Positions 3,001 to 26,544 of a stretch of DNA of 64,000 bases are shown piece by piece. Made by a program: the position numbers and the translations under genes. This stretch comes from Polytrichum commune (lineage: Eukaryota > Streptophyta > Polytrichopsida > Polytrichales > Polytrichaceae). The notes beneath the pieces are model-generated. The model saw only the letters and a list, made by a program, of their open reading frames with translations. It was not told the DNA's origin and did not search any database. Positions within the stretch are counted from its first letter, which is position 1. Every line of letters begins with the position of its first letter. The stretch covers positions 4,028,001-4,092,000 of the forward strand of contig OX485803.1 of the NCBI GenBank assembly GCA_950295325.1. Reading direction: 5' to 3'.

Positions 3001-3130
3001 TGGAAGGTCAAAATGTAGTTCAAATGTAGTGAACTATTGTATAGTGCCCTACAAATTGTTATTGTTAGGTGACTTGATTTCATAAATGGCATCAAAAGAT
3101 CCCGCATCAATCTAGCTTGACTTGATTGGA
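1..3130. other. Gene-poor stretch, no supported gene
   Basis: Only short, unrelated open frames occur on both strands, with no recognisable domain, no convincing exon chain and AT-rich composition. A Rep-C dispersed repeat lies at 2141-2400. The block at 2541-2840 is somewhat more GC-rich and its minus strand has a broken frame that I do not recognise; it may be an old transposon fragment. Confidence 0.5.
2141..2400 (-). repeat. Dispersed repeat Rep-C, copy 1
   Basis: This stretch matches, in reverse complement, the segment around 44255-44480. Shared words include a run reading 'tcttcactttgataatgaga' here and its complement there, and a 'gacaccaaaaa' box. Other related segments are near 30130-30280, 31920-32045, 32905-33010 and 45490-45720. 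No coding content or clear termini were found, so the superfamily is unknown. Confidence 0.5.
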
Positions 3131-3169
3131 ATAAATTAACCCACTACGGAGTTTGTAAACCATAACCAT

Positions 3170-3480
3170 GCTGGAGGTAACACGAAGAATTCATGCATGG
3201 TGTTTGATCATATCAAGCATTGGAAGGACTGGATGACAATGTTGTGTTATGTATATGATAACAAGCATCGTAAAGTGTTGATAATTATGGGTTGTGACAT
3301 GCAATATGAAGATAGTGCACCAAGACTTTCTTTTGGAAAAAAACTTGAATGCTATCATGGCACACAATGAAAGCCAAACATGGAATTCAAAGGCTTTATG
3401 TCAATGGACATTGCAACACGTATCGTTCACCACAACTGCACTAAACCTATCATTCAACCAAAGTGTGAAAATTAGTCGTA
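3170..3480 (+). pseudogene. MULE transposase relic (DDE region)
   Basis: In translation this block matches the catalytic region of the better preserved MULE-1 transposase at 12690-12900. Shared short stretches are VFDHIK / MFDHVK, KDWMTM / RDxTTM, YDNKHRKVL / YDSKHCKVL and GCDMQYED / CCDMQSED. It then continues as a diverged copy of the FWENFNAIM region and of the FKGFMADS box that holds the second putative catalytic Asp. The frame is broken and there are no neighbouring exons or termini, so this is a fragment of an old Mutator-like insertion. It is useful as an outgroup: it has Trp where MULE-1 has a TAG stop at 12721. Confidence 0.75.
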
Positions 3481-7120: not shown

Positions 7121-7130
7121 GCCAAAGAGG

Positions 7131-7193
7131 GGGGAGTGCTATCATGTGAGCGGTGAGCGATGAGCAGTAACTTGTGAACGGTGAGTGAGGAAA
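7131..7193 (+). repeat. MULE-1 left terminal inverted repeat
   Basis: It begins GGGGAGTGCTATCATG and continues with a series of TGAGCGG, TGAGCGA and TGAGCAG words. It is the inverted counterpart of 16451-16516 and is closely similar to the right end of MULE-2 (26030-26082). The iterated 7-8-bp words may be transposase binding sites; that role is inferred. Confidence 0.9.
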
Positions 7194-7680
7194 GATTTTT
7201 GGAAATACATGCATTAGTACCCTATATCCGTGGTATTTTGGCATAAATAATAATTTTTTTTCTAAAATAAAATTAATGGAGAGTTTAAAAAATGTAATTA
7301 TCCTCATGAATGCCTCACTCTATTTTTAAATTCAACAACTGCAAGCTTGGCTTGAGGGTTTGAAAAAGAATTTTAATATTGTTGTTGGATTCAACATTCA
7401 ATTGTAATATCAATGCAAACACCTTCCAAGTATTGCTTTGAACTGTATTTCTAAAATTCATGTAAGTTTGAGAAATGAATTGATGGAGGTAATTAAGTTT
7501 TAGGATATAGGGTTCAAGAATAAGAGGAAATTGCTCACACAATTTAATGTTCACTAATGGTGGTAATTTAAAATGATGAATCCAAACATTGTCACACATC
7601 CAACCAAATAATATCCAATCCAATCAAATACATAGTGGATGGTATTGACAACTACCTAAATGTCCCTAAACTAATTTAGC

Positions 7681-9573
7681 TTAATCATTTAGATCATCGC
7701 ATTGAATCGCCTCATCATCTACGTACGGGTTACGGACAATTCGTGCAGACATACGGCGAAGTGTTGGCGTCACTGATCTTGCCATGATTTGAGCAACATT
7801 TTCAGTATATATTGGCAAACCCATATTCGGAGATGAAGTCATGTTGTTTTTTTTTCTGCGAAATAAAATCATAAGTGTTAGACTTCTAGTGCACACATAC
7901 CAGACATTGGAGGCTAAGTTAGCAAACAATATGGAGAAATTAAAAACTTATGTTCTCAATCGATTTTTTCTCGCAACCTTCTTAACAAGCTCTTCATCGG
8001 AATCGATGGAGGCATTATGTGGCATAAATCCACCTACACTAGTAGTTGGTAGTGGATCACTTAATGGGGATAAAATAGCATCAAAGAATGCAAAATCTTC
8101 CTCGTATGCAACTAGATGGCGGCCACTATTTCTGCAAGCATGAATAGATGCACCTGCCAATGAAATGTTGCAATGTCAGTTAATTTGCAAAAACCACTGA
8201 CAACACTATAGTGACTTCATTAAAACACATTGAGAGATGATATAATAGGTCCTTGAGTAAGAGATAAACCGACCTGTAAATGCGTAAGCATCGAGGACAA
8301 CCGATGCGGGGGTTGTTAAAACCTCTATTAAGATTTGCATAGATTCCGAGTCCTTTTCCCTACCACCTCTCCATGGCACTTTTTCGTTCATGAGTTGAAT
8401 GCTCACTGATGTGAGATTGAAGAACACATCCAAGGCCTCCACATCCACCTCAGTATTTGCGTTTCTTTTTTGAAAAACAAACTCCGACTTGGGAGTAGAA
8501 CGAAGAAACAACATGATGCGGAAACGACGAGTCTATAAACCACAAGAAAATCTTTAGCGGGGGATTCGATTGCAAAATTGAGGAGAACATTGCAATACAA
8601 TGAAAAAGTAGAAATCAAAATAATAAATAATAGAATTTAATGTATACCGTCAACGACATGTCAAGTGGATAACACAAAGGCAACTCGTTGAAGCCCCACC
8701 AATCTTTTCGCAATACAAAATCATAGGAGGCTGCGAATGTCCTTACATCGTCTTTGACATATTTCTTCTTAGGGACAAACAAAAGCAAGGGGCCATCATC
8801 GGTGAGATATACACATGCAAATTCAAATAGAGCCTCAATGTTCTTTCTCTTGTGGTCATTCCAAGCTGGGATTACATGTGGAGGAGATGAAACGTTAGGT
8901 ACAGATAAACCTTCTAGCAAATCTGCAATAATAAGATCAAAACCTCTAAAATTACAATTCTCTGAAGAAACCCTCCTCTTGCGTCCGGAACCCACCTATC
9001 AAAAAAACCAAAAAATAATAATTATACACAAGTCCAAAGCATGTTGCAAAATCAACACCATATTTTATAAAATAAAAATAAGTTCAATATTCAGTATACT
9101 AACCTTAGTCACAAATTCGAATGTTTTCAACATTAACAGATTCTCATGACAACCATTCTCCATCAATCTTTGTATTGAAATCTTCTCCAATATCACTGAA
9201 GAAATTGGCCCAAAAGATGAAGCACCATTGACAATGGTTTTTAACACATGTTGAGATCGTTGTGATCTCGAAATAGGAGAAAACTTAGGTCCATCATTGC
9301 CTTGAGTGTTAGGTGTAGATGTTGAAGGACTAGGATTGCGTGCCATAATACCAATTTGAGATGAAGGTGTTGGATTACCCTCATCCACCTTTAAGCCACG
9401 CTTATGTTTAGTTTTTCCCTCCGGTTTTACTACTTTCACCACACACACATTCTCATTGTTTATCATGTCAATATCATCAGGAGGCAAGTCTATTGGACAT
9501 GACTGTTTCCTAAGCTCCTCCTCCTCACTTGAACAAAATGTAAGAGGACACTCAATAAACCATGGACAAGACT
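7681..9573 (-). pseudogene. DNA N6/N4-methyltransferase-like cargo gene of MULE-1, 5' truncated
   Basis: Exons read on the minus strand with GT-AG borders: 9573-9104, 8995-8648, 8532-8274, 8153-7948 and probably 7855-7681. The joined frame is phase-consistent across the first four and gives about 426 residues. The order matches the N6_N4_Mtase family (PF01555). FDLIIADLLEGL sits where the DPPY catalytic motif is expected. It is followed by a strand ending PLLLFVPKKK, then NEKVPWRGGREK, then the SAM-binding-like VVLDAYAFTG, which is split by an intron after the first base of the last Gly codon, then GRHLVAYEED. Both key motifs are altered (ADLL for DPPY; YAFTG for FxGxG), so catalysis is doubtful. 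The N-terminal 150 residues are Ser/Thr/Pro-rich and basic. Upstream exons are missing: a 358-bp array begins 47 bp before the first exon. A stop at 7948-7950 precedes the last putative exon, whose splice phase does not fit, so the 3' end is uncertain. By analogy with MULE-2 the lost N-terminus may be ParB-like. Confidence 0.7.
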
Positions 9574-9620
9574 GCAAAGTGGCATAATCCCATTTTAACG
9601 TGGCATAATCTTACTTTAAT

Positions 9621-11642
9621 GGTTTTTTCTTGCTTCTTCATTTCTTGTTTTTGTAAACATTAATGTCTCATTTTCAGCACCTTATGAAAGCAAAGGCTAG
9701 GTAAAGGTGATGAAATCCGTGCCCTCAACCTTTTAGAAATCTTAGAAGCTTCAATTTCAACCTTGAAGCTTCTTTATTGAAACTCTTTAATGTACTACAA
9801 ACCCATCAAACAAACCATACAATAACCTCCAAACATACATATCAAGGCAAGATACAAGTAATGAAGATAAACAAATGCAAGAAGAAAGACAAAAACAAGA
9901 CATGAAGAGGCAAAAAGAATACCCTAAAATTCCTAAAAATCTAGTCTCGGAACCGGAACTCACTTTGTTGAAGTTTTGAGGTTTTTTCTTGCTTCTTCAT
10001 TTCTTGTTTTTGTGAACATTAATGTCTCATTTTCAGCACCTTATGAAAGCAAATTCTAGGTGAAGGTGATGAAATCCGTGCCCTCAACCTTGAGAAATCC
10101 TAGAAGCTTCAATTTTAACCTTGAAGTTTCTTTATTGAAACTCTTTGATGCACTACAAACCCATCAAGCAAACCACAAAACAACTTCCAAATATACATAT
10201 CAAGGTAATATACAAGTAATGAAGATAAAGAAGTGCAAGAAGAAGGACAAAAACAAAACATGAAGAGGCAAGAAGAAAACCCTAAAAATCCTAAAAACCT
10301 AGTTTCGGAACCGGAACTGACTTTGTTGAAGTTTTGAGGTTTTTCTTGCTTCTTCATTTCTTGTTTTTGTGGTTATTAATGTCTCATTTTCAGCACCTTA
10401 TAAGAGCAAAGACTAGGTGAAGGTCTTAAAATCCGTGCCCTCAACCTTTGAGAAATCCTTGAAGCTTCAATTTCAACCTTCAAATTTTTTCATTAAAATT
10501 CTTTGATGCACTAAAAACTCATCAAGCAAACCACATAACAATTTCCAAGCATACATATCAAGGCAAGATACAAGTAATGAAGATAAACAAGTGCAAGAAG
10601 AAAGACAAAAACAAGACATGAAGAGGGAAGAATGAAACCCTAAAATTCCTAAAAACCTAGTTTCGGAACCGGAACTCACTTTGTTGAAATTTTGAGGTTT
10701 TTTCTTCCTTCTTCATTTCTTGTTTTTGTGGTTATTAATGTCTCGTTTTCAGCACCTTATAAGAGCAAGGGTTCGGGAGAGGTGATGAAATTCATGCCCT
10801 GAACCTTTTAGAAATCCTTCAAGCTTCAATTTCAACTTTAAAGCTTCTTCATTGAAATTCTTTGATGCACTAAAAACCCATCAAACAAACCATACAACAA
10901 CTTCCAAACATACATATTAAGGCAAGATACAAGTATTGAAGATAAACAAGTGTACAAAGAAAGACAAAAACAAGACATGAAGAGGTAAGAAGAAAACCCA
11001 AAAAATCCAAAAAACCTTGTCTCGGAACCGGAACTCACTTTGTTGAAATTTTGATATTTTTTCTTGCTTCTGCATTTGTTGTTTTTGTGGACATTAATGT
11101 CTGATTTTCAGCACCTTATGAGAGCAAGGGTTTGGGAGAGGTGATAAAATTTATGCCCTCAACCTTTTAAAAATCCTTGAAGCTTCAATTTCAACTTTGA
11201 AGTTTTTTTATTGAAACTCTTTGATACACTAAAAACCCATCAAGCAAACCACAGAACAACTTCCAAGCATACATATCAAGGCAAGATATAAGTAATGAAG
11301 ATAAACAAGTGCAACAAGAAGAATAAAAACAAAATATGAAAAGGTAAAAAGAAAACCCTAAAATTCCTAAAAACCTAGTCTCGGAACCGGAACTCACTTT
11401 GTTGAAATTTTGATGTTTTTTCTTGCTTTTTCATTTGTTGTTTTTGTGGACATTAATGTCTCATTTTCAACACCTTATGAAAGCAAGGCCTAGGTGAATG
11501 TCATGAAATCCGTGCCCTCAACCTTTTAGAAATCCTTGAAGCTTCAATTTCAATTTTGAAGCTTCTTCATTGAAATTCTTTGATGCACTAAAAACCCATC
11601 AAGCAAACCATACAACAGCTTCTAAGCATACATATCAAGGCA
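9621..11642. repeat. Tandem array, 358-bp unit, about 5.6 copies
   Basis: Units start near 9621, 9980, 10338, 10696, 11054 and 11414. Each opens with a ggttttttcttgcttcttc-like box and contains a 'cggaaccggaactcactttg' box near its end. The last unit is partial and stops directly at the transposase coding sequence. On the minus strand four units keep an open frame of 66-80 codons (10357-10115, 10679-10473, 11038-10838, 11397-11191) with a shared Cys-rich, hydrophobic sequence starting SSGSETRFLG or similar. In the first unit the frame is cut by TAA. The array fills the central region between the two divergent MULE genes. Confidence 0.95.
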
Positions 11643-13148
11643 ACCTCATGTTCATCCTACGTCATCTATATCTGATGTCCATGTATTAGAAGCCCTCAAA
11701 ATCACCAAATATCGTAGAAGATCCAAATCCGATTTTACAAATATTGACTTCGATAACATTGCTATAAAGGATGTGAAGTATCTGCCGTCTTCTTTTAATG
11801 GGGATGTCCTTTTCATTTTGCCACCGGTCAAGACTGAAATTTCAGATGCTTATGGCAAGGCGATGGATGGCATGGACAAGATTTACGACGGACATGTCTG
11901 GTGCAGAACCAAAATAACAAACATTCAAAATGAATTTGGTTTGACTTTTTGGAGGTCTTCATGCGTTGGTCATCTCCAATGTCCTAACGACTTATGTGAG
12001 TATTTTTCACGAAATGGTGGAGTTCGCAACTGTACTGAATGGATTGGTATTACACCCACTCCTTTCATGGTTGGTACTGACCCACCAGAGAAATCTAAGG
12101 TTCAATGCAAGGTTTGTCATGCCGCTCCTATATGTCTTGATGTTTGCTATGCAAAAATTATATACGTGCATTCACAATCGTGAAACATGTCCCGTGTTTG
12201 TATTCATTTGGGTGTTCACAACCACCCTGTGTCTAGTGGAGTGTGTCGTGAGTCACTAGACATAGCTTACAAGTGTGTGGCAAATGAGATGGCTAAAACT
12301 CCAACTGCAAAGAACTCGGCTATTGTTATGGCTGCCAATAAACAGTTTTTCGGTGATTACATCCTCAAATTCCCACTCCTAGGAGAAAAAAACCATCTTC
12401 ATGGAGCATCCTTGGATGTGGTAATGGATAAATTCTCCACTTTGGCTTCCTCTAACTGTCGGAACTTTGTGGCGGGTTCCAAACGTTTCATTCGTAGTGG
12501 AATGGGTTCCCTGGATAGCATCATGGCGCTAAAAAACCACTATGGGTTCAAATATGTGCATGATAGTCAATTTTCAGGGCAATCCAAAGATAAGGTCTTT
12601 CTGTTCAAGATGTCTGTGGATCTTGCTGGAAGCGGAGTCGATTTGGTGAAGCGCATGCAGTATGGAGGAGACATGGAAAATTCGTGGATCATGTTTGATC
12701 ATGTGAAGTGATTACGAGATTAGACTACAATGGCGTGTGATATCTATGATAGCAAACATTGCAAGGTTCTCACAATAGCATGTTGTGATATGCAATCAGA
12801 AGATGCTCGGGCCCAAACCATTTTTTGGGAAAATTTTAATGCTATCATGTTGACGAATGGTGTTCCCAATGTCAATTTCAAAGGATTCATGGCGGACAGT
12901 GCCCAAGCAAATTGGATTGCTGTGAGGAAGATTTACGGGGATGGTGACCCATCTGCTCCCCTCGAGGGTCGCGAACGTACATGTTTTTTTCATTGGTCTG
13001 CCAATTTGGATAAAATCATACAAAAACACATCTGACTGTCATTGCAACATGAACACAAACAACTTTGTAAAGACTACAATGATGCCAAGAGTTTGGAGGA
13101 CGCCAACATCAAATACCATGTAATACGGGCATGGTGGTTGTCATCAGG

Positions 13149-14557
13149 TGTGAGCCCAAAATGGTGCCCACATGTGGTGATCAACTCTTCGAAATCAATT
13201 TTAGTTTGACTTTGAGGCGTTATGATTATTCACAAAACATAAAAAGAGTGAAGTGTAGTGTGGATTTAAGTGTAGGCATTAGGATGTGTTGTGTGGTTAT
13301 TTCAAGGGTTGAGTTCAATAGGAGAATGCCTTGATTATGTGAGTAGGGGATAAGGTGAGGCAAGGTGAGCTCCGCGGGTTAAATGCCCACTTTTGGATCC
13401 ATCTTATTAGTTTAGGAAGAAGGAAGCTTGGTGGAAGGGGATTAGTCCCTACTTTGAAGGTGAAGGTTAAGGGATTGTGATTGGAGGTGCTAATCCTCTC
13501 ACCCTATCCTCACCTTTCTCTCCCTCTCCCCCTCTCTCCCTCTTTGCTACTTAAGGTGTTTTCTCTCTCATTTTCCTCTCTCTCCATCAAGTGCTCTCAA
13601 GGGAGCAAGCTCTGAAGAGCTTGAGCCACGTGTGTGGGTTATTAGTTTTAGTGAAGTTAATTAGTTAAGCTCTCTCTCTCAAGGCCTCCCAAGTGAGTGA
13701 GCTCTTAGAGCTTAAGATTGCATGTAGTGATTAGGTGGTAGTTAGTGAAAGTAATGTGTTAGATTAGTTCATGACTTAGAAGCAAAGAAAAGAAAAGAAA
13801 AGAATAATTTAGAAAACCTTGATTAGGGGATGGGGAGGGTTGTAGTAAAGGTAGCCAAGGCTGCTGGATTGTATTTCTGTTGGGCCTAAGGCTAAGGGCA
13901 GCCAAGGCTGCTGGATTGTATTTCTGCTGGGCCTACACCCAGGAGCGGAGCTGCTGGACCGTATTTCTGCTGGGCCAAGGCCAAGGAGCTGGACTGCGGG
14001 ACCGTACTTCGGCTGGGCTTCAGTTAGTTCGTTAGCTTTGATAAGTTAGGCTACTATGGGGGGGGGGTAGTTAGGCTAATCCCTTGCGGGATTGCTAGAC
14101 CATACTAGATTCTTTCATGCCATCTTGGTTCTTAGGTAAAGTTGGATTCATTAGGAAAATAGAAGTGTGTGTGAATCTTGAATGTGTTGGTGGTTACCCA
14201 TCGAGGTAAGTGTTTTTAAACACTCGTACTCTTTGGTTGGAATAAATCACGTGCATGATTAATGGAGAATGTGGAGGATCCTAGTGAGGACAAGATAAAG
14301 GAAGTAAAAATCAAGAAGTCTAGAGGGATCTCTTTAAGGGCATGTGTGGCCAAGGCCGTGGGTTGGACCTTTGAGAAATCAAATTCCACTACGAGCAACG
14401 ATGCTCACAATAACAAAGCAAGTTGAGTTGAGATGAAGTTAGTACCTAGGACATAAGAGCCATATAGCAATCCACATTATGGTATTAGGAATTGAATGTG
14501 ATTCTCAAAGCCATCACCCGGACTAGGACGCTTAAGGGTGGTGGGTTTGGCCTCACA
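13149..14557 (+). mobile_element. Solo LTR-1 inside the MULE-1 transposase
   Basis: The insertion starts TGTGAGCCCAAAATGG and ends GGTTTGGCCTCACA, so it has TG...CA ends with a 6-bp terminal inversion (TGTGAG/CTCACA). It is flanked by the 5-bp duplication tcagg (13144-13148 and 14558-14562). Removing it and one duplication restores the transposase frame (SSG|ATTEEG). No internal retroelement region or primer site is present, so a recombined solo LTR of 1409 bp is the simplest reading. It belongs with LTR-2 and LTR-3 in this window. Internal parts are CT-rich (13500-13600) and contain a minisatellite. Confidence 0.88.
13851..14025 (+). repeat. Minisatellite in solo LTR-1
   Basis: Three to four imperfect units of roughly 45-50 bp, each with a 'gctgctggattgtatttctg'-like core followed by a ctgggc box. 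The last units are more diverged and GC-rich. Confidence 0.8.
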
Positions 14558-16450
14558 TCAGGGGCAACCACCGAGGAGGGCATATACAGTTTGTCGGAAT
14601 GGTTGGGGTTTTGGCATTATCGATATAGACAATGGGGAGGTCACATGCTCATTGTAAGTTTCTCCTATACACAAGTGCCCCTCCTCTACTATTGATAAAA
14701 TTGTTGTGTCATCTCAATTTTTAAAACTAAAAATATTCCCAATATGTACTACAGGATCTGGCTTTGGATCAGCGTGCTAAGATGCCAACTTGCAACCTAG
14801 CAGAAGCAGTGCATAACAAGTGGCTACAACAATCAGGGAACAAAATGACATGCTTGTACGAGGCAACCGTGGATGACATAATCCGCGCATTCATGCAAAT
14901 CGCAAATTATCGTTCTTGGCTTAAAGGGAGTTCTTCAGGGAAAGGGCCAGATCAAGCATCATTGAAGCTCAAAGCTGCAACACACACTGGTGATCCCAAG
15001 CTTATTGCAGAGGCAAGGAGGTCATATCCTGGGGAAGAGGATCTTAATACAAGGAATTGTGCACTTGAGGGCTTTGAGTTGTTTGGATCAACCAAGAGAA
15101 AACTAGACTTACCACCTGGATCTGAGTATGATTCTCATCGTCCCGACAAAGTGAACTACTCCATCCCTCACCCTAATACAAGGTCAACGAGGGCACGCAT
15201 AGATGAATCCTTCAAGCGTGATGAGAATATGGTGTCTCACACCACTAATGTGTTGGAGTCAGAGTGTCCTGAATCCCAATGGTATAATTCACAATTGCCT
15301 TATCCGTCCAAGAAAGAGTGTCAGGCATTGTAGGCCAATACTGGACATCCATGTAGGGCTAAAGTTGGGAAAAATATACATGGCACACTTGCGCCAATGT
15401 ACACATGCATGAAAAAAGAATACCGTTCCAACAACCATGTTCCAACAAATTTTTGGTTTTGTGGAGATGACAGTAATCAATGTGTGAAGGGGAGCAAGAA
15501 GAAATGGGTGTTTGATTGGCCAAATCTCCCTAAGGTGTGGCCAGTGAAGGTTGGTACAAACCTTACACAGGAGGAGGTGTTTGCATTGGAAGATGTTGGG
15601 TTTCAACTGCAACAGAAAGAGGCACTGTCACCACGTCGTCGATTGAGAACAATGACAAACCTCTCCATCCCTCGTTCACATTTTTGTGTTCCTCCAAACC
15701 CAAATGCGCATCTAAACACACGGTTTTCTAAGGCAGTTCAACGGAAAATGACAACACCATTATCAAAGCATAGGAATAAATGGGAGAACGCATTACACAT
15801 GGATGGGTATTATGTGGTTGGTGTGACTCCCATTCCATACCCTGGATACGGATGCATCATAACCATAGTTTCCAAAGAAGAGAAGACATACCTTGTCTCC
15901 ATTGCAGATATTCCACAATGCACTTGCCCGGACTTTGTGAAAATGTTGTCTTTGGCAGTGGGAAAAAGGGGTCAGTGGGTTTCATGCAAGCACTTGTATT
16001 ACGTGTTCAGGTATTTGTGCAAGGTTGACTACGCCACTGACAAGTTCATTCATGCACCGATATTCAGCTACAATGAGGTGATGCGACTTCTTGAGCTCGC
16101 GGGTGTTGCAGAAGAGGCGTAGTGGCATAGGGGTGAAGGGCATGGACGCAATTATTCATCATTTTTACATATATAGAAATAATTGTGTGTATCCATATGA
16201 AATGTATGTAGTATAAACTGATGGTACAACTAAATAGTTGTTTGTCACAATAAAGTGCTCGACATTTCAATGCCGTACTTGACATGTCAATAAAATGCCT
16301 ATCACCGTGGATCAACAAACTTCCTGAAATCCATGGTAATAGGGCCGAGTTCAATACATTTTTTTCCCACAATTTTGTTTTCATAATATATAATCCAACT
16401 ATATTGGAATATTTTCTTTTAAAATCCTATTATTGGTCATTTTTTTGTTG

Positions 16451-16516
16451 ACTGCTCACATGTTACCGCTCACTGCTCACTGCTCACCGCTCAACGCTCA
16501 CATGCTAGCTTCCCTC
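16451..16516 (-). repeat. MULE-1 right terminal inverted repeat
   Basis: Read on the minus strand it starts GAGGGAAGCTAGCATG and continues with TGAGCGT, TGAGCGG and TGAGCAG words, pairing with 7131-7193 and closely matching the left end of MULE-2. The 318 bp between the transposase stop and this repeat hold no gene. Confidence 0.9.
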
Positions 16517-16526
16517 GCCAAAGAGG

Positions 16527-17240
16527 GTACGTGGTGTGATAGGCAAAGTGTGACTTGATTCCATGTGCAATAAGAGGCATGTGCAGGGAATGGCATGCAT
16601 TGGAATATGCACCATTATACGAGAATATGTCAGGGATGTATTGATGGCATTGTTGGGCATGCACCATAGTAAAGAGCTTTCTTCAAAGTAAATTGACAAT
16701 TTTAGTATTGGCTTCCATTGGATGTTGAAATGTGTGTTGAATACCTATATTGGCAGTTTTTATTTTGCGACATGTTGAACCTCATTCTTAAACCTTAATG
16801 GTCCAAATTATTCTCAAAACTCTTCATTGCCACATTGAACGTAATATTGTAAATCCAAGGCAATGTCATAGCTTGATCTACTCTACTTATTTTAGATGTT
16901 TAAAATTCATTCCCATGACCTGGCAAGTTCATAAAACCATAAACATAAGTCATATAGCCTACATAAGTTATATAGGCTAGTGTCAATGGCATTTAAAGAT
17001 GCGTGTAAGCCGCCATGGACCTTCTGACACAAATTTCTTTCAATTTTTCCACGAAAGATATCACATCAAGGTAGTTATGGATGCCAACATGTATTTGACC
17101 GCCATTACACATATCATGACATTATAATTTGCTTATTTACATTAAAAACACTTGTCCCTCATCGGTCCCCCTAGTTGAACTCTTCCTATGCAACTATTTG
17201 TTGCCGGTGTCTCATGCAACAGATTTTCTAGTTATTTTCC
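16527..17240. other. Intergenic DNA between MULE-1 and a MULE relic
   Basis: No gene or element recognised. It is AT-rich. Its 3' part may belong to the eroded 5' half of the following MULE relic. Confidence 0.4.
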
Positions 17241-17249
17241 ATGTTACAA

Positions 17250-18470
17250 AATCCACATATGCTGGTAGCGATTCGGGTGATCCTATGGAAAATTGTAAGT
17301 GGACTATCAATTTGGGCAAGGTAACTAATAGAATATATCAAACCTCTCTTGAAATTTCAGCACAAGCAAATATGCAAGGATTACAAGATGCGTAGAGAAT
17401 GGACACTCAAACTAAATATCATGTGATTTGTTCATGGTGGTTGTCTTCCGGAGTTGTTAGGAAGAAGGCATTCTTGGTCTTTTGATGTGGTTATGGCATT
17501 GCAAAGCAATGGGGTGATCATTTGCTTATTGTAACTACATTACCAAAATGTGTTATTGATGTTGGTTTTTGTACATGCTAGAATTGTGATGTTCTTCTTA
17601 TCCCCAGCTCTAGTGGGGTTCACAATAGATGAACATGTTGAAATACCAACATGCAACCTTGCAGAGATAGTGCACAACAAATGGCTCCAATGGTCCAACT
17701 ACAAGTTCACTTGCCTGTACAAAGCCATAGTGGAAAATTTGATCCGTGCCTTCATGCATATTGTAATTTATAGGGCATGGTTAAAAGGGGTTCCTACTAA
17801 TAAAGGCCATGATTTAGTGTCTTTGAAACTTAAAGACGCTTTCAATCGTGGAGATTCAAAGCTTTTGGTAGAGACCATGACGTCTCACCTAGGGCAGAAG
17901 ATATAAACACCAAGGATTGTGCCATGGATGGCTCAAAATGTTTGGGTCCACCAAACAAAAGCTCAACTTGCCACTTGATGTTGTTTGTGACTCACATTGA
18001 CATGTCAAAGTGAACCACTTTATTCATCGCCTAAACATTTGATTAAACATAAGTCTTTGAATTATGTAAAGCATGGTGTGGCTCATACCACATTGGCGAT
18101 AGAAAATAATTGCTTTGCTTCCCAATGATGCATTGCAAGATTTCCCTCCACCTTTGCCAAATGATGTTGGACAATGCATGGACTTTATTTCATGCAAAGT
18201 CGGAATTGGCAAATAGTGGACTCCTACTCCAACTTATAAAGGGTAGAAGAAGGAATTTTGTTCCACCAACAATATGGAGAATGAGTTTTGGTTTTGCATT
18301 GACAACATCAACCGTTATGTGAGTGACAACAAAAAGAAATATGTTCTAATGGGCATATAGTGCCCAATACATGGCCGGTGGAGATAAGAACCAATCTCTT
18401 GAAGGAGGAGGTATTGGTTCTCAAGGACGCCATGTACTATAGGCAGCCGAGAGACACATCAAACTTGCTA
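17250..18470 (+). pseudogene. MULE-3 transposase relic (C-terminal two thirds)
   Basis: Blocks parallel to the MULE-1 transposase occur in the same order but in several frames. TKYHVICSWWLSSG at about 17410 matches the segment before the LTR insertion. A block equivalent to PTCNLAEAVHNKW is at about 17645 (IPTCNLAEIVHNKW). CLYKAIVENLIRAFMHI follows, then DINTKDCAMDGS at about 17900 and TPTYKG/NFVPPT-like sequence near 18230-18280. It breaks off in the region equivalent to EEVFALED (about 18420). The SWIM finger is absent. Stops and small indels are frequent, so it is older than MULE-1 and MULE-2. No terminal repeats were located. Confidence 0.8.
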
Positions 18471-18479
18471 TGGTAATTG

Positions 18480-18696
18480 GCCTTGCATTGAATCATTAAA
18501 TCATTATAATGCCAAGTTTAGACTTTGGACACCTAAAACTCATGTGAGGTTATTATATTTGACATCACAGTTTGCATGTAAGTCTTAATTATTCACATAT
18601 TACCATTCATCACTCTGTCTTAGCTTTACTTATTTATATATCAGTAACATAGACATGATATAGGAAAAATTCGACATTAATTTGTGGACTTAATGA
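18480..18696. other. Short spacer before LTR-2
   Basis: AT-rich, nothing recognised. It ends at the ggaag duplication (18697-18701) of solo LTR-2. Confidence 0.4.
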
Positions 18697-19144
18697 GGAA
18701 GTATGAGCCCAAAATGAGTGCTCATATTGGTTTTATGTTTAGAATTTAATTAGGATTGCATTTGGAGTGCTATTGAAACAATTAAAAGTACAAAAAGAGT
18801 GAGGCTTGGTGTGGATTTATGTTTAGGCCTTAAGCCTATTTGTGTGGTTAATTAGAAGCTTAATGACATTAGGGAGTGTTTTGGTTGAGTGGGTAGTGTT
18901 TGAGGAAGCAAGGGGAAGGGCCTTTGACTTAAATGTTTGAATTAGAACATGTTCTTGTTAGTTTAGGGGGTGAGGGTTTAGTGGATAGGATAAGGTCCTA
19001 CTAAGTAGGAAAAGGTTAGAGAGGTCGTGGTTGTGGGATGCCCTCTCTCATTCCTCCCTCCTCTCTCTCATTCTCTCTCTCTCTCTCGTGTGGTGTGGGG
19101 GTGCATGTGTGTGTGTTTTTTGTAGCATGGTAGAAAATGTAGTT

Positions 19145-19404
19145 GATTAGAGGGGACTTATAGAATATAGTTAATTAGAGGGAACTTATCGAATGTAGTT
19201 GATTAGAGGGACCTATAGAATGTAGTTAATTAGAGGTGCTTTATAGAATTAGTCGATTGAGACCAGCTACTAGGGACTGACGCAACAACTGATTAGCGAC
19301 TGGGGCAACAGTTGATTAAGGGCCGAGACTAGCTACTAGGGACTGAGGCAGCAGCTGATTAGCGACGGAGGCAACAGTTGATTAATGGACCAAGACAGAG
19401 CTTA
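19145..19404 (+). repeat. Minisatellites in LTR-2
   Basis: Four imperfect units of about 29 bp based on tagttgattagaggga and acttatagaat are followed by about two units of roughly 60-70 bp based on ctactagggactgaggcagc and agctgattag. The second repeat type resumes at 26083-26170 on the far side of MULE-2, which confirms that MULE-2 split this repeat. Confidence 0.85.
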
Positions 19405-19414
19405 CTAGGACTGG

Positions 19415-19504
19415 GAGGGAAGCTATCTTATGAGCGATGAGCAGTGAGCGGTGAGCGGTGAGCAGTAACACATGAGCAATGAGCAGTAACATATGAGCAA
19501 TGAC
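19415..19504 (+). repeat. MULE-2 left terminal repeat
   Basis: It begins GAGGGAAGCTATCTTATGAG, followed by about ten iterated TGAGCGG/TGAGCAG/TGAGCAA words with two interspersed AGTAACA boxes. It corresponds to the right end of MULE-1. Confidence 0.9.
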
Positions 19505-19639
19505 TCCAAATTTAGTAAAGACATACGGGTTTAGGGTACATAACCATAATTTTGACAAATTAATTGCATATTTTCAATTGTAAATTGCCAGTATTTTAAA
19601 TGAAGCACACGTGAAAGGACCCTATTGCCATGGATCATT

Positions 19640-20395
19640 TTAAACACTTTCAATCCATTGCTAATTTTTATTATAATAATCCAAACCAATACATGTCATT
19701 TATTGACATCCTTATACATGTAGTTACAACCCACACTTGTACAACTACTCACATTTCACAACACCAACAAGTTCAAGTAGGTGCATAACCTCATTATACG
19801 TATATGTAGGTGTCATAATTGTGAACCACTCAAACCGCTCACGGGCTCAGTTAAGGCCCACAATCTACAAAAGCAAGGAAATTAGATATTACAAATAGTC
19901 AATATGTAGGTAGCTACTAGATTTTGAGACATCCGACTGTAGATGCGAGTTGTGTAAGAGACTGGTATTAGGTCTGGATCAACCCGGGTTCGAATCCGGT
20001 TGGTTACATTGACCGGTGCTATCCCAAATTGAGTTAATGATAAAGTAGGAATAATCTATAGGCGGATACCAAGAAGAGGTTACTACGCGGATGTGCGTAG
20101 AATCTTGTCGATTATTTTTTATTTTTAGAAACTTGTTATTATTTATCTGTGTGATTCAATCAAACCGCTCACGGTTGGGTCGTAGTCTAAATAGAATTGA
20201 AGTTACTGAATCATTTGAAAGACTTTCAGTCCATAACTAATTTTTGTTATAATAATCCAAACCAAAACATGCCATTTATTGACATTCAAATATATGTTGC
20301 TTAATAGAACACTTGCAATACTACTCACATTTTACAATATCAACAAGTTCAAGTAGTTGCATGACCTCATTATATGTATATGTAGGTGCATGAAT
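19640..20395. repeat. Partial duplication of the MULE-2 transposase 3' end
   Basis: The stretch 19640-19830 is repeated with about 563-bp spacing at 20200-20395. Both contain ataataatccaaacca, an atttattgacat box and an aacaagttcaagtag box, the last encoding the transposase C-terminus on the minus strand. The copy nearer the terminal repeat is the extra one. The DNA between them includes the tRNA-like segment. Confidence 0.75.
19920..20135 (+). mobile_element. Possible tRNA-derived SINE
   Basis: A strong tRNA B-box, GGTTCGAATCC, lies at about 19987-19998 inside a T-arm-like stem (ccgggttcgaatccgg). A plausible but weak A-box lies 40-50 bp upstream. The downstream body contains gcggatgtgcgtag and ends in a T-rich tail. 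No full tRNA cloverleaf can be drawn, so a functional tRNA gene is unlikely. No target duplication was identified. Confidence 0.4.
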
Positions 20396-22060
20396 GAACT
20401 TGTCACTCTCGTAATCCACCTTGCACAAAAATCTAAACACATAATAAAGATGTTTACAATACCCTATTTTCCTTTTTTTCCCGATGCATGAGATGACATT
20501 TTCGTGAAATCCGGGCATGTGCAATGCGGAATGTCGCCAATTGTGACATGGTAGGTGATATCCTGCTTGGAGACAATGTTGATTATAACTCCAAAGCCCG
20601 GATATGGAATGGCAGTGACCCCAACCACATAGTAATCTTCCATGAGTCCGGTACTTTCCCATTTGTTTTTGTGATCCGCCAGCGGTGCTGTTGGATTACG
20701 ACGCACTGTCTTCCCAAACCTGAATGTAGGGTGGACGTCCGGGTTTGGTGGCATACAAAAATGCGAGCGAGGGTTGGGAAGAGTTGCGATTGTTGAAAGC
20801 CTACGACGAGGGGACAATGCCTCCCTCTGCTGTAGTTGAAATTCAGCATCTTCAAGTGCCAGAACCTCCTCTCTCCATAGATTGGTACCTATCTTCACCG
20901 GCCACATGTTGGGTACTATAGGCCAATCCAACACATATTTCTTCATACTGCCACTCACACAATGCTTAATATCATCAAGGCAAAACCAAAATTCATACTT
21001 CACATTGTTGGGAGAACAAAATTCCTTCCTGAGCCCTTTGTATGTTGGAGCAGGTGTGCCATGTTTCCCAATCCCGACTTTGGTATTGTACATAGTCCCT
21101 GTAATGGCCTGCAGTATCCAACATCGTTTGGCTGAGTTGGGTGGCAATCTTGCAATGTGTCACTTAGAAACAATACAATCACTCTCTAACACAGATGTGG
21201 TATGAGCCACATCATGAATTGCAAAATTCAACGATTCCTCTATACGTTGACGAGTTGTTCGGGTGTTGAGACGAGGAATGAAATAGTTCACTTTGTCGGG
21301 TCGATGAGAGTCACAATCAACACCCGGTGATAGGTTGAGTTTGCGTTTGGTGGAACCAAAGAGCTCTGATCCTTCCAATGCACAATCTCTAGTGTTGACG
21401 TCTTCTGCCCCTAGATAAGACTTCATGGCATCACCAACATTTTTGGATCTCTACACCTGGCAGCCGCTTTGAGTTTCAAGGATGCTGAATCAAGATCTTT
21501 ACCATCAGACCCCCTTTCAACCATGACCGGTAATTTGCAATTTGCATGAAGGCACGGATCATGTCATCCACTATACCTTCATATAAACAAGTCATCTTGT
21601 TGCCAGACTGTTGGAGCCATTTTTTGTGTACAGTCTCTGCAAGGTTGCATGTTGGCATTTCCGCACGTTGTTCTATTGTCATATCCTATGAACAATACAC
21701 AAATATGAGGATAATAAAAATATAAGAAATATATAATAATGAAAGAAAAATGAATGACATTGAATATTGAATTTTGATATGTACTTACAAATAACATATG
21801 ACCACCCCATTGTCTGTAACGAAAGTGCTAAAAACCCAACCACTCTGAAAGGCCAAAGATGCCTTCTTCTGAGGCAAATCCGAATGACAACCACCAAGAA
21901 CGAATCACATGATACTTAGTCTCGGCGTCGTCCATTGTTTTCGCGTCTTTGTAATCCTTGCATAATTACTTGTGTTGAAACTGCAAGGATGGTTTGATAT
22001 ATTTTTGGGTCATCTTATCCAAGCTCGTAGACCAATGGAAAAGACATGTACGCTCACGTG
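20321..22060 (-). pseudogene. MULE-2 transposase remnant (C-terminal part)
   Basis: The minus strand carries the same order of blocks as MULE-1 from the HWSxxLDK box onwards: TCLFHWSTSLDKM (about 22030), KYHVIRSWWLS, an intron between the GGHMLF codons and DMTIEQRAEMPTCNLAE (about 21690-21800), HKKWLQQSGNKMTCLYEG, LALEDAEFQLQQREALSPRR, VVGVTAIPYPGFG and the SWIM half-motif CTCPDF, then CKHLYYVFRFLC. A frameshift in the Lys-rich stretch near 20470 splits the SWIM finger, and other frameshifts lie near 21460-21500. A TAG at about 21830 replaces the Trp seen in MULE-1 (GFWHY). Everything N-terminal to the HWS box, including the two DDE Asp boxes, is deleted. Confidence 0.85.
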
Positions 22061-22544
22061 CAATCATGAAGAAATACGCAACACAATACGAAAAAGAAGA
22101 ACAATCTTCTCAGGCGGAGATGGAGGTAGGTTGTACGAACGAAATCGTAAGAAAATAACTTTAAAATCAAAATAAATTTGAAGGTATGTAATGTATACTA
22201 TATTGTGCACGCCGAGAATACGATTCCAACGGTATATAGCATGAACAAAATGATTTTGTTTTGCATGTTTTAGAGCCAAAAAAACAATTAGAGCATCTTA
22301 GATTCTTCTAAAATCTTCAAAAAATGAAAATTTTATGCAGGAAATCTAATCATATTAATTTCAGTAGACTTTGGCGATTTATGTAAAATTGATATCATCT
22401 CCAAAAATTCTGGAAAAAATTGGAGTGAATGGAAAGGCTATAATCTATGCACTTGAGTTTTTTCGGAAATAAATTAGAATATTTGAAAACGTTATAGCAC
22501 TCCGGAAAGTGACTCAAATCAAGGTGTATTTCTCTTCCAAATGG

Positions 22545-23405
22545 GTAGCCGTTAACGGCCACCCTTTTTATGATGCCAACTTCTATGTTCTAGTTTAGGA
22601 TGGCCGTCAACGGCCACCCTTTGTATGATGCTAACTTCTATTTTCTAGTTTAGGGTACCCGTTCTTGGGTTTCAGTCTTCATTTAACAACATATTTTCTT
22701 TGAAATAAAATCACATATATGCATATATTTCTTATGTATGTTCCATCTAAAAGTATGGCCGTTAACGGCCACCCTTTTTATGATGCCAACTTCTGTGTTC
22801 TAGTTTAGGATGGCCGTCAACGGCCACCCTTTGTATGATGCTAATTTCTATTTTCTAGTGTAGGGTACATCTTCTTGGGTTTCAGTCTTCATTTAACACC
22901 ATAATTTCTTTGAAATAAAATCATATATATACATATATTTCTTATGTATGTTCCATCTAAAAGTGTGGCCGTTAACGGCCACCCTTTTTATGATGCCAAT
23001 TTCTGTGTTCTAGTTTAGGGTGGCCGTTAACGGCCACCCTTTGTATGATGCTAACTTCTATTTTCTAGTTTAAGGTACCCCTTCTTGGGTTTCCGTCTTC
23101 ATTTAACAACATAATTTTTTTGAAATAAAATCACATATATACATATATTTCTTATGTTTGTTCCATCTAAAAGTGTGGCCGTCAACGGCCACCCTTTTTA
23201 TGATGCCAACTTCTGTGTTCTAATTTAGGGTGGCCATCAACGGCCACCCTTTGTATAATGCTAATTTCTATTTTCTAGTTTAGGGTACCCCTTCTTGGGT
23301 TTCAGTCTTCATTTAACAACATAATTTCTTTGAAATAAAATCACATATATACATATATTTCTTATGTCTGTTCCATCTAAAATTGTGGTTGTTAACGGCC
23401 ACCCT
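22545..23405. repeat. Tandem array, 210-bp unit, four copies, with GTTAAC palindromes
   Basis: The box gttaacggcc recurs at 22551, 22761, 22971, 23181 (as gtcaacggcc) and 23391, an exact 210-bp spacing. Each unit has two related sub-blocks, each opening with a ggccgttaacggcc or ggccgtcaacggcc core followed by accctttntatgatgc. The core is a perfect 14-bp palindrome. At 23017-23040 it extends to a perfect 24-bp palindrome, and an isolated core lies at 23621-23634. The array sits between the two divergent MULE-2 genes, the same relative place as the unrelated 358-bp array in MULE-1. Confidence 0.95.
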
Positions 23406-23809
23406 TGGTTGCATCTCGAATTTATTGGTATATAAGTTTATTTTTTCATGTATACACGCATTTCCACCCTTATTAAAATTTCATATTCTTTTCTATATAT
23501 GTATTTTTTTCATGTATATATTCATTTCCACCCTTATTAAAATTTTATATTATTTTCTATATATGTATTTTTCTTCATGTATACACTCATTTCCTTCATT
23601 TTTTTTCCTCCAACAAGGGTGGCCGTTAACGGCCATCCATATTGAAATTTCAGATTCTATTCTATATGTGGTTTTCCTTATGTATAGTCTCACTTTCATA
23701 AATATTTTTGTATATTATTTTAGTTTTCATGTGTGATTTCTTTCATATGTATATATTTCTTTTAATTTAGTTTTATCTTTCATATGGATGATATTTTTGT
23801 GATTTAGAT

Positions 23810-25406
23810 ATGGAAGTTGTACATCTTTCTGAAGATCAATTGGAATTGCAATTGCATGCATTTTTAAGAAAGAAATTGTCAACACATCTTCCCGTCTTGC
23901 ACGGTTGAGGCATCAACCAAGGGCAAAATTAAAATTCAACATTCCACTATGTCGAATGGTTGCATTGCCTGTTGTTAGGTCTTTTTTGAAAAATGACGTT
24001 ATGAACTTGGCTGCACATTTTGTTGCTTGTGGTTATATGGACGGCAACGGGATTTTTTACGTGGCCTTGGAAAACAATGAGGAGAAAACAATAGATGTTA
24101 CTGATAATATCATTGAATCATAGAGTGAAAATTGGGTACGGACAAATGATGCCTTTGAAAAAATATTGCAAACTGATGGATACGTCAAAGTTTTCTCTTG
24201 CAAAATGTTTATGATGTGGGATGGAAACCACCGTTTGCAAACATGGTTGCCCATTATTAATCGAGATCATATACATGATCATGCTTGACATTATGCTGTT
24301 GAAAATATTATTTTGGACGTCAAGGGAGATATTGCAACCATGTTGGCAAGTTTACATGAAGTGATAATTCTTTCATTCTTCTCTTTTTATTTGTTCGGTT
24401 CATTTGGTTTTCTTTTAAGTTTATTTTTTTATTATATATTTCTTTTCCGTGGCTTATCATTGGTTGTTTTATTTTGTCATGAAGAACTAAAAATCCCATG
24501 TTTGTACGAATCTTGTTCATAAGCTTTGCCGCATTCAAAGCATTGTTGGACAACCACTTTCATATTTTAAAAAAGTTGTCTCCAAAGAAGATCTTACTGC
24601 CGCTGATGCCAAATAAAAATCCAAATATAGAACTTGGTTTTCTTTTACTGTTGAGGCTCTTAATGGATTTCTATATTAGGTTATTTTTCTAAAGTATTAG
24701 TTTTTCATGTTTTTTTTTCTTGTATAATTTTTTTTCTTTTTATTTTGATTTTGATAACTATATGGTTTATTACATCCTATTTTTATTATGTGTGATTTAT
24801 CATACTCTTATATGTTTTTTCCTTGGTGTAGCAAGAGTTGGGAGATGTTGCTGTTACTGCTCAAAGGAAATTTTATGAGAAATACCCTGATTCTACACAT
24901 TGGACTTCAAGTGCGGTGGGTGAATTTGTTTCCAAAGCTGTGGAGAGGGTAGGATTGACTTCCCATTTGGAACTAAAGAAACAACTTTCCATTGCAGATC
25001 CTAGACATTCTCCTATGTTCTTAAAGCAGGTGAAGTCTCATTATAAAACTCACGATGAGAATCCTGACATGATTCAAAAAAAACTTTGGATGTTAGCAAC
25101 TTTGGCAATGGATACATCTATGAAGATTAAGTGGCTTGAGAGGTGGAACAGTTCATCTACTCTTCGTGAGGTTCTCAAGTTTCCGAAACCAAAATTCAAC
25201 GATACAGAGTTTTCTAAGTGACTTGATAAAACTACTTGGTGGGCTCAGGTGATAATTTTTTGTCTATGTTTTTTGAAAAAAAAAAAATTCAATCATTCAA
25301 TTTTTTTAATCTGTATTTTGTATTTGGCAGTTGGCTATTGAGACCGAGAAGCTCTTTGATGCTACTGTGGCTAATATGCATGTGTCCATCAACTATCTTC
25401 CAGATG
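23810..25406 (+). pseudogene. ParB-like cargo gene of MULE-2, 3' half missing
   Basis: Likely start ATG at 23810 (MEVVHLSEDQL). Exons fit 23810-24360, 24485-24679, 24832-25248 and 25331-25406 with GT-AG borders. Exon 1 contains MNLAAHFVACGYMDG, then VKVFSCKMFMMWDGNHRLQT. The last resembles the ParB/Srx-fold GxHR box (typically DGxHRxxA), which in bacteria is often joined to N6/N4 DNA methyltransferases. Exons 2-3 encode helical sequence (LVHKLCRIQSI; WLERWNSSSTLREVLKF) and exon 4 encodes MHVSINYLPDG. There is a frameshift near 23905 and stops at 24121, 24286, 24616 and 25219, several set in contexts where Trp or Gln is likely. No exon follows the good donor at 25407. Place, orientation and splicing style suggest this is the upstream half of the gene whose downstream half survives in MULE-1. 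That join is an inference, and the ParB assignment rests on one motif. Confidence 0.6.
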
Positions 25407-25439
25407 GTATGGATCATGTGCCCACTATTTTTTATTTTT

Positions 25440-26029
25440 TATATTTGATTTCCAAGAACTTCAACAATTTAAACCTACTACCCGATTTATATCTACAATT
25501 CACTTTTGTTGTTCTTTATGTTTTGCACTTCGTAAATGTCACCCTCATGATGGTGTTATGATGTATTCAAATTTTACATTGATGTGTTTTATAGTGAGAC
25601 ATTCTAACATGCTACATTTGTTTTCAACATGAATTTGCTTACACATTGTCTTCAATTACATTATTATTATCTCAACAGTTGAATGTATATTAGTTCATTT
25701 TTTATACAAAATTGTTATAGCAACATTCTCATTTGTTGTTCATTTGGACTATAGACCCTTACATGTAATTCCACAATCATAGGCCCCCAACGGATTTACA
25801 AACCATAACCGGGAAAAAATTGAAGGCTCACAGGTTCACACACGCATGCTCACATTCTAGCAACCCCGAGTCATGTACATATTGGTATTTTTCATTGCTC
25901 ACTACTTGCAATCTAGCATTCATATTGTTTGTCCTCCCAATCTTCTTATTATTGAACCCTAAAAATTTATTTCTTTAGGCCACGGTTATAGGATACTAGG
26001 GGTCTTATTACCAAATATTTTGTTTTCTT
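25440..26029. other. MULE-2 sequence between cargo gene and right end
   Basis: T-rich, with no methyltransferase exons. The last 100 bp (cacggttataggatactagg) resemble the subterminal part of the MULE-1 left end in reverse complement. A deletion therefore probably removed the 3' part of the cargo gene here. Confidence 0.6.
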
Positions 26030-26082
26030 CACCGCTCACAAATTACCGCTCACTGCTCACCGCTCACAAGATAGCACTCCCC
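26030..26082 (-). repeat. MULE-2 right terminal repeat
   Basis: Read on the minus strand it is GGGGAGTGCTATCTTG followed by TGAGCGG, TGAGCAG and TGAGCGG words. The first 13 bases are identical to the left end of MULE-1. Confidence 0.92.
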
Positions 26083-26544
26083 CTAGGACTGGGGCAGCAG
26101 CTGATTAAGGGACCGAGACCAGCCTACTAGTGACTGAGGCAGCAGCTGATTAAGGGCCAAGACCAAAGTTTTACTAAGGAGCAGCTGGTAGTATTCGTGG
26201 GAGCAATTAGTTACACTAGACTAAATCGTAACGTAGTCAATTAGGATTAGTACATAGTGTTGGTTTCAAACAAAAAGGAAAAAGAATTAGTTCATTAGAG
26301 TTGTGATTGAGTTGTGTGGGATGGTACTTGAGCACGCGACTAGCGCCATGATAGAGAAGATTGTTTCTTAACACTTGTAATCTTGTTATGGAATAAATTG
26401 GTGTGTATGGATTAATGAGAAATGTAATGACTTCTAATGAAGTTGGTAAAGGGGAGCTATGCGAAACAAATGTGATATCCATTCCCTCACCCGGACTAGG
26501 TTGCTTAAGGGTGGGTGGTTTGGCCTCACAGGAAGATAGCATGG

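Follow-up and report, generated by a model that had tools for sequence, protein, structure and literature searches.

Do two neighbouring transposons of Polytrichum commune that carry different gene parts hold the halves of one gene, and what might its product do for the transposon? The question is raised by a stretch of 64,000 nucleotides, hereafter the window (C1:4028001-4092000 of a 408-Mb assembly), in which two Mutator-like elements, MULE-1 and MULE-2, each contain transposase sequence and, divergent from it, a second spliced gene, here called the cargo. The cargo of MULE-1 comprises a methyltransferase-like part only and that of MULE-2 a ParB-like part only. A preliminary description had proposed that, if these halves belong to one gene, the transposon has captured a bacterial- or phage-like module. 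Relatives from the same genome (E1-E4, F1 and F2, and the L-loci) were compared, and relatives of both elements were found to carry both halves as one gene within one mobile unit. In the fuller copies the cargo is one spliced gene whose orientation is divergent from that of the transposase and whose product has about 950-1,150 residues.

The genome contains NAC-domain genes, with 28 exon matches (14 to the N-terminal and 14 to the C-terminal part of the model), as expected of a land plant or near relative; so small a number would be in line with a bryophyte. The transposon group is present at very high copy number in the genome. Genome searches scored at least 150 copies of the MULE-1 methyltransferase-like exon (1,170 first-look candidates) and at least 150 copies of a relative's ParB-like exon (1,235 first-look candidates), and listed 146 transposase matches (2,473 first-look candidates). 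These candidate numbers are rough and, since the match lists lean to different subfamilies, unpaired matches tell little. Among the matches listed, 46 pairs of ParB-like and methyltransferase exons were no more than 12 kb apart, and 45 of them lay on the same strand with the ParB-like exon first (two of the 45 have one methyltransferase copy in common). The methyltransferase copy of the sole exception also has a same-strand partner.

The E1 gene, recovered by spliced alignment, covers 1,159 guide residues and falls into 13 pieces. First come the N-terminal exon, which contains KRKRKR, an exon of acidic character and a piece of 10 bases that is doubtful; the ParB-like exon follows, then four exons of the middle region, the linker, three exons of the methyltransferase and finally the tail. 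The four frameshift marks in this alignment represent possible damage or artefacts. The order and most intron positions were found again in E2, E3, E4, L014, L016, L017, L002 and L005, and F1 and F2 displayed the order of E1 with fewer introns. Alignments of L001 and L004 are partial, and those of L003, L015 and L018 are partly forced through non-coding DNA. L032, a member of the MULE-2 family with 60% identity to MULE-2 in the ParB-like exon, has methyltransferase exons downstream. A basic N-terminus resembling a nuclear localization signal (NLS) was identified in E1 and E2, both traced to a likely start. The domain order is thus NLS-like N-terminus, ParB-like domain, middle region, linker and permuted beta-class N6/N4 methyltransferase fold.

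The cargo is mobilised together with the transposase. An exact 10-bp duplication was present in five of the six end pairs found (MULE-1, MULE-2, E1, E2 and L029). Inside these duplications, transposase sequence and cargo lie together in E1 (12.6 kb), in E2 (11.2 kb) and in L029 (8.6 kb), where the transposase was seen in its rear part only. The sixth end pair, that of E4, showed no duplication, and the left end of E4 matches poorly; only one end was found for F1, F2 and L032, and neither end for L030. A typed methyltransferase match lay within 16 kb of 76 of the 146 transposase matches listed and was divergent in 75 of the 76, with the cargo 5' of the transposase. The other 70 may be without cargo or may lie near copies outside the typed or listed matches. 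Separate genes, or halves belonging to unrelated element families, were named by the preliminary description as the counter-case and were looked for in the relatives; this arrangement was excluded by the pair orientation, the spliced alignments, L032 and the shared duplications. The name 'Mutator-like' rests on structural features because no profile of this transposase type was matched: at E values up to 10, none of the transposase frames tested gave a Pfam MULE/Mutator transposase (DDE) model. A SWIM-type zinc finger scored below the Pfam cut-off (E 0.039-0.97).

The two elements in the window, with transposases located by tblastn using the E2 transposase frames and cargo exons by spliced alignment, are composed as follows.
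7131-16516: MULE-1, ends GGGGAGTGCTA and TAGCTTCCCTC, with the 10-bp duplication GCCAAAGAGG at 7121-7130 and 16517-16526
7681-9592, minus strand: rear part of the MULE-1 cargo, with exons 9592-9104 (linker) and 8995-8648 (motif IV)
8532-8274 and 8153-7960, minus strand: further MULE-1 cargo exons, holding motif X with the first part of motif I and the rest of motif I, respectively
about 7855-7681, minus strand: tail of the MULE-1 cargo, placed by comparison with the relative E1
9621-11643: 359-bp repeat array of MULE-1, 5.6 copies
11632-16113, plus strand: MULE-1 transposase, in stretches 11632-13155, 14552-14659 and 14749-16113
17240-18455, plus strand: third transposase fragment, between MULE-1 and MULE-2
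19415-26082: MULE-2, ends GAGGGAAGCTA and TAGCACTCCCC, with the 10-bp duplication CTAGGACTGG at 19405-19414 and 26083-26092
19748-22067, minus strand: MULE-2 transposase remnant, without its front
23881-24360, plus strand: MULE-2 ParB-like exon with the WDGNHRL box, its frame interrupted by a single TAG and a single TGA
24485-24679 and 24832-25251, plus strand: following MULE-2 cargo exons

Both duplications are without mismatch, and in both elements the 11th base, G, agrees too. The elements have their end types in common: GAGGGAAGCTA marks the transposase side and GGGGAGTGCTA the cargo side, and heptamers of the TGAGCGG type lie inside these ends. Within each element the terminal inverted repeats span 39-56 nt with 74-82% complementarity and heptamer repeats, which is short for Mutator-like elements. 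The matching ends and target duplications given in the preliminary description were therefore borne out, as were the divergent second gene in both elements (approximately 9592-7681, minus strand, in MULE-1; 23881-25251, plus strand, in MULE-2), the methyltransferase motifs in MULE-1 and the ParB-like DGNHRL box in MULE-2 (24220-24237). Its treatment of 7131-26082 as one finding held for the two related elements and failed for the interval as a single feature, since the third transposase fragment lies in between.

Each element is damaged. In MULE-1 the transposase is broken and the cargo lacks its front, the guide alignment covering it only from residue 511 on; in MULE-2 the transposase lacks its front and the cargo its rear, with alignment to guide residues 32-393 only and no cargo match beyond 25251 by spliced alignment or tblastn. 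The first 186 residues of the E2 frame were unmatched in MULE-1 by tblastn. Approximately 1.4 kb of extra DNA (13156-14551), containing a 47-bp array at 13846-13981, splits the MULE-1 transposase where the corresponding E2 stretch is one unbroken frame. A 360-bp array, comparable to the 359-bp array of MULE-1, lies in the E1 intron ahead of the ParB-like exon. Another transposase fragment, 40% identical, is found at window positions 3116-3403, outside the two elements.

The methyltransferase half was recognised by profile searches. Against PF01555 (N6_N4_Mtase; cut-off 26.7 bits), the unspliced 577-residue frame of F1 scored 32.4 bits over model positions 1-216 and F2 scored 35.3 bits, with its best stretch at 163-216. 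Nine of the 11 rows of a wider alignment matched this family at an E value of 0.01 or better, and the single exon fragments of MULE-1 alone gave no PF01555 match. The best match of a nine-copy profile was Helicobacter DpnA (5hfj; 1.1e-8, positions 11-223 of 228), followed by CcrM (2.2e-4), a pair of entries that are named methyltransferase, and RsrI. No relative turned up when viral contigs were scanned with the methyltransferase profile. The motifs of the cargo run in the order IV, X, I, as in beta-class enzymes.

Most copies keep motif X (PWRGxxEK), and likewise the TG in motif I. At the catalytic position, 16 of the 21 copies scored, which include several near relatives, have D[LIV]P[ED]; F1 has DIPY, and the motif is altered further in L002, MULE-1, L029 and L032. 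The canonical (D/N/S)PP(Y/F/W) was found in 0 of the 21 copies read. Because the catalytic motif is missing from all 21, the cargo protein is probably not a canonical methylase, and we infer from these residues the label 'pseudo-enzyme'. The loss is common to the copies, which suggests that the fold may be kept for something other than methylation. 'DNA marking' by methylation, a role put forward in the preliminary description, is unlikely for the copies read, given their eroded catalytic motif.

For the other half, 'ParB-like' is a label for the GNHR box and its position ahead of the methyltransferase. Sixteen positions are invariant across 11 rows of this half, including the G and H of GNHR. 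Scans of Pfam, NCBIfam and PHROGs, tblastn against phages and a profile scan of viral contigs gave no useful ParB support; the nearest ParB-side match, in the PHROGs scan, was PHROG 1033, ParB-like, at E 0.4 over the box. A genome search with PF02195 (ParB) returned matches only on small contigs and none in the cargo. The single-sequence AlphaFold model of the MULE-2 exon had a mean pLDDT (predicted local distance difference test score) of 30.9. A ParB identity becomes more likely because a published Ectocarpus protein, compared by its layout as described in the accessible part of the source, has a corresponding arrangement (PMC12477816).

Older copies are under purifying selection. The ratio of nonsynonymous to synonymous substitution (dN/dS) between L016 and L003 was 0.10 for the methyltransferase half and 0.24 for the ParB-like half, the corresponding values for E1 and L005 were 0.24 and 0.35, and the methyltransferase half of MULE-1 gave 0.28-0.31 against E1 and E2. 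Synonymous sites were saturated or nearly so between more distant families, the proportion of synonymous differences (pS) being 0.70-0.87 and that of nonsynonymous differences (pN) 0.27-0.41. Young pairs, whose values are built on few changes, ranged from 0.13 to 1.15, with low ratios in pairs such as L014/L015 (0.46 and 0.16). Rows in which one copy lacks the half concerned, so that its alignment was forced, were left out, namely the ParB-like comparisons E1/MULE-1, E2/MULE-1 (28 codons) and L001/L002 and the methyltransferase comparison MULE-2/L032 (29 codons). The pattern fits copies that decay once inserted. Distances of the ParB-like and methyltransferase halves disagree in L016/L018 and L016/L003, which hints at exchange between families.

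Tandem arrays were observed in the region between the divergent genes and in some introns, and in many copies the repeated core is palindromic, 16-24 bp long and family-specific. In the window, MULE-2 has the following palindromes.
22544-23637: MULE-2 palindrome GGTGGCCGTTAACGGCCACC, ten near-copies with 0-3 mismatches, 0 in shuffles
Nine of these near-copies lie inside a 210-bp tandem array (22548-23406), and the first overlaps the array edge. Other families contain GTGTCTCGGNNCCGAGACAC (E3 and L018), TGTCTCGGGACCGAGACA (L016), TTGTGCGCTGGCGCACAA (F1), TGTGCGTTAACGCACA and GTTTGGGTCGAACGACCCAAAC (L029), the imperfect GGGTGCCGTAAACGACACCC (L014) and CTGTCGGATCCGACAG (L030). Under one fixed rule, a palindrome family of at least three copies was present in 10 of 16 intervals, in 0 of 22 two-kb window blocks outside elements, in 0 of 9 transposase or rear element parts and in 0 of 1,600 shuffles (100 per interval). 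With shuffling of the repeat unit, the fairer null for arrays, 15 of 46 arrays were palindromic at p 0.045 or less, in MULE-2, F1, F2, L029 (two), E3 (two), L016 (three), L018, L004 (two), E2 (another palindrome, TTCAAGCTTGATATTCAAGCTTGAA) and L031.

The palindromes also occur genome-wide near the cargo. TGGCCGTTAACGGCCA, which is its own complement, was counted 210 times per strand vs once for a reversed control. Forty-six of 50 listed sites lay within 1.3 kb of a MULE-2-type ParB-like exon (55 typed exons), all 46 upstream; of the remaining four, two were 9.6-9.9 kb away from one and two had none in the vicinity. GTGTCTCGGNNCCGAGACAC occurred 997 times vs 0 for its control. Among its 50 listed sites, 36 were within 6 kb of a ParB-like match, one was near a methyltransferase match, and the 13 near neither half form one cluster (C1:468608-471927) with a methyltransferase match approximately 10 kb away. 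Chance as the origin of the palindromes was excluded by the shuffles, the control blocks and the genome-wide counts against controls; the notion that every array is palindromic was excluded by the results of the fixed rule and the repeat-unit shuffle. The palindromes may be candidate landing sites of the cargo protein.

Read from sequence, the most economical interpretation would be a self-encoded DNA-binding protein with its own putative sites. MULE-1 and MULE-2 are read as deletion derivatives, complementary to each other, of one large Mutator-like group whose fuller members have two divergent genes. We consider it about an even chance that the cargo encodes an accessory protein which recognises its own family's palindromes and de-silences its own copies in the manner of VANC. 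The protein would enter the nucleus by way of the NLS-like N-terminus seen in E1 and E2, its ParB-like or middle part would bind the family's palindromes, and the methyltransferase fold would serve as a binding module and not as an enzyme. Each family would in this way recognise and activate its own copies, as VANC does for Arabidopsis VANDAL elements. Chromatin opening, help in transposition or regulation of the divergent promoters may be alternative roles of the protein.

Several observations weigh against this interpretation. PF02195 was matched by 0 of the 11 rows in Pfam, two profile searches of the ParB-like half gave no PDB match, and a profile comparison with phage ParB gave none; the bacterial- or phage-like character proposed in the preliminary description is consequently upheld for the methyltransferase half (PF01555, DpnA) and not for the ParB half. 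No palindrome family was detected under the fixed rule in 6 of the 16 intervals (MULE-1, E2, L015, L016, L032 and L017), those of L015, L016, L017 and L032 being short or truncated and the L016 palindromes lying mostly in a later intron. The between-gene arrays of E1, MULE-1, E4, L030, L014 and L005 were unsupported by the repeat-unit shuffle (p 0.085-0.84), and a 277-bp array of L031 (L031:800-1317), with palindrome AAGAGGCCTCGGATCCGAGGCCTCTT, is situated past the cargo tail, not between the genes. A palindrome within a tandemly amplified unit is counted many times, leaving only about seven independent motif origins. Some young pairs are near neutrality (F1/F2, 0.83-0.97; E1/E2 ParB-like half, 1.15; L003/E3 methyltransferase half, 0.98). 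The word 'palindrome' is absent from the accessible text of the VANC papers (PMC5735166, PMC10398659). Binding, transcription and de-silencing are all putative.

A helper of transposition or integration, comparable to maize mudrB or a synapsis factor, for which the palindromes would be assembly sites with no role in silencing, is the rival that survives best, although we judge it rather unlikely. The cargo is nearly always divergent from the transposase where both are seen and is mobilised with it, and mudrB, likewise a second gene, seems to be needed for integration according to the accessible part of PMC6446971; however, the palindromes lie mid-element and not at the ends, which have heptamer repeats of their own.

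It is improbable that the cargo acts as a functional N6-adenine or N4-cytosine DNA methyltransferase and marks its own element, the role suggested for the Ectocarpus Sola1 protein in the accessible text of PMC12477816. The whole domain matches beta-class enzymes by profile (DpnA and CcrM, above), most copies retain motif X and the motif I TG, and VDIPYG of F1 is one residue off DPPY. Against these features stand the lack of the canonical motif in every copy read, an aromatic residue in F1 only, and erosion common to families whose older copies are under purifying selection.

It is very improbable that the cargo was simply captured from the host or a contaminant, as a Pack-MULE-like passenger functionless for the element. 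In favour of this reading, numerous copies, those of MULE-1 and MULE-2 among them, are broken, and several young pairs approach neutrality. Against it, the gene is found in many diverged families, and dN/dS is 0.10-0.35 between older comparable copies. On the chromosomes PF01555 matched nothing but the cargo of F1 and F2, although genes can escape a search made exon by exon; the other PF01555 matches and all PF02195 matches lie on small bacterial-looking contigs.

On these small contigs, C10, C12 and C23 (L019, L020), the frames that match PF01555 and PF02195 are long and unbroken, and one encodes a ParB-methyltransferase fusion with 70% identity to a viral contig. The contigs have the appearance of bacterial or phage contamination in the assembly. 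Kinase-like frames (LGRGSYGVV, HCDLSFTN, GDWG) are present in the F copies between the transposase and the ParB-like exon (L021:6900-8264, plus strand; L023:6673-8240, minus strand) and are unproven, with a Pfam Pkinase E value of 0.016 for one fragment only. Elsewhere in the window, one 2-kb block (38001-40000) has a strong GC skew (0.43), and no tandem array scoring at least 120 was found there.

Proteins of this type are known outside land plants. According to the accessible part of PMC12477816, transposons of brown, green and red algae are reported to have ParB-methyltransferase accessory proteins, and the mode of action of these is only suggested. Ectocarpus Sola1-1_Ec32 (1104 residues), compared by description, likewise joins a ParB-like domain to an N4/N6 methyltransferase in a single chain of some 1,100 residues, and its gene and the transposase lie on opposite strands; it differs in superfamily (Sola1) and algal host, and the part of that paper available to us mentions neither an eroded motif nor palindrome arrays. 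VANC of Arabidopsis VANDAL resembles the cargo as the accessory gene of a Mutator-like element with family-specific short motifs in noncoding tandem repeats, including accessory-gene introns (PMC5735166, PMC10398659, as far as accessible). In contrast, those texts mention no ParB or methyltransferase fold for VANC, the VANC21 motif YAGTATTAY is 9 bp long and arrayed in one orientation compared with the 16-24-bp palindromes here, and anti-silencing is demonstrated for VANC and would apply here by analogy.

Bacterial and phage ParB-N6/N4 fusions, such as L019 and L025, resemble the cargo in that ParB precedes a permuted methyltransferase, and the profiles match across motifs X and I (92.7%). Unlike the plant copies read, which have eroded D-x-P-E-type motifs, mostly GNHR, introns and a long middle region, L019 and L025 contain DPPY and GGRR. 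N4CMT of bdelloid rotifers is also a bacterial-type permuted N6_N4_MTase (PF01555) in a eukaryote, yet it is described in the accessible part of PMC8885841 as a host gene with SPPY and a chromodomain fusion that deposits 4mC, as opposed to transposon cargo with an eroded motif. The literature search, with most subscription papers outside its coverage, found no ParB/methyltransferase cargo for a Mutator-like element or a land plant. The statement of the preliminary description that such cargo was undescribed thus holds for Mutator-like elements in the literature searched and does not extend to the algal transposons of PMC12477816, as seen in part. What is new is the superfamily, the host and the scale, together with the erosion of the catalytic motif and the candidate target sites; the cargo type is already known in algal transposons.

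For this transposon group, more than a thousand exon candidates in the genome, by rough first-look counts, constitute natural replicates, and the naming of candidate target sites makes what is bound, and whether methylation is involved, directly testable. A more ambitious and tentative proposal, less probable than VANC-like action itself, is a eukaryotic counterpart of ParB/parS, in which a ParB-like pseudo-methyltransferase would load onto its own orthogonal array between the two divergent genes and keep its family open or mobile, and in which palindromes and proteins would co-diverge to yield many non-cross-reacting selfish families. If the VANC-like action is true, Mutator-like elements would have evolved self-encoded sequence-specific anti-silencing on at least two occasions, from proteins that have no evident relation.

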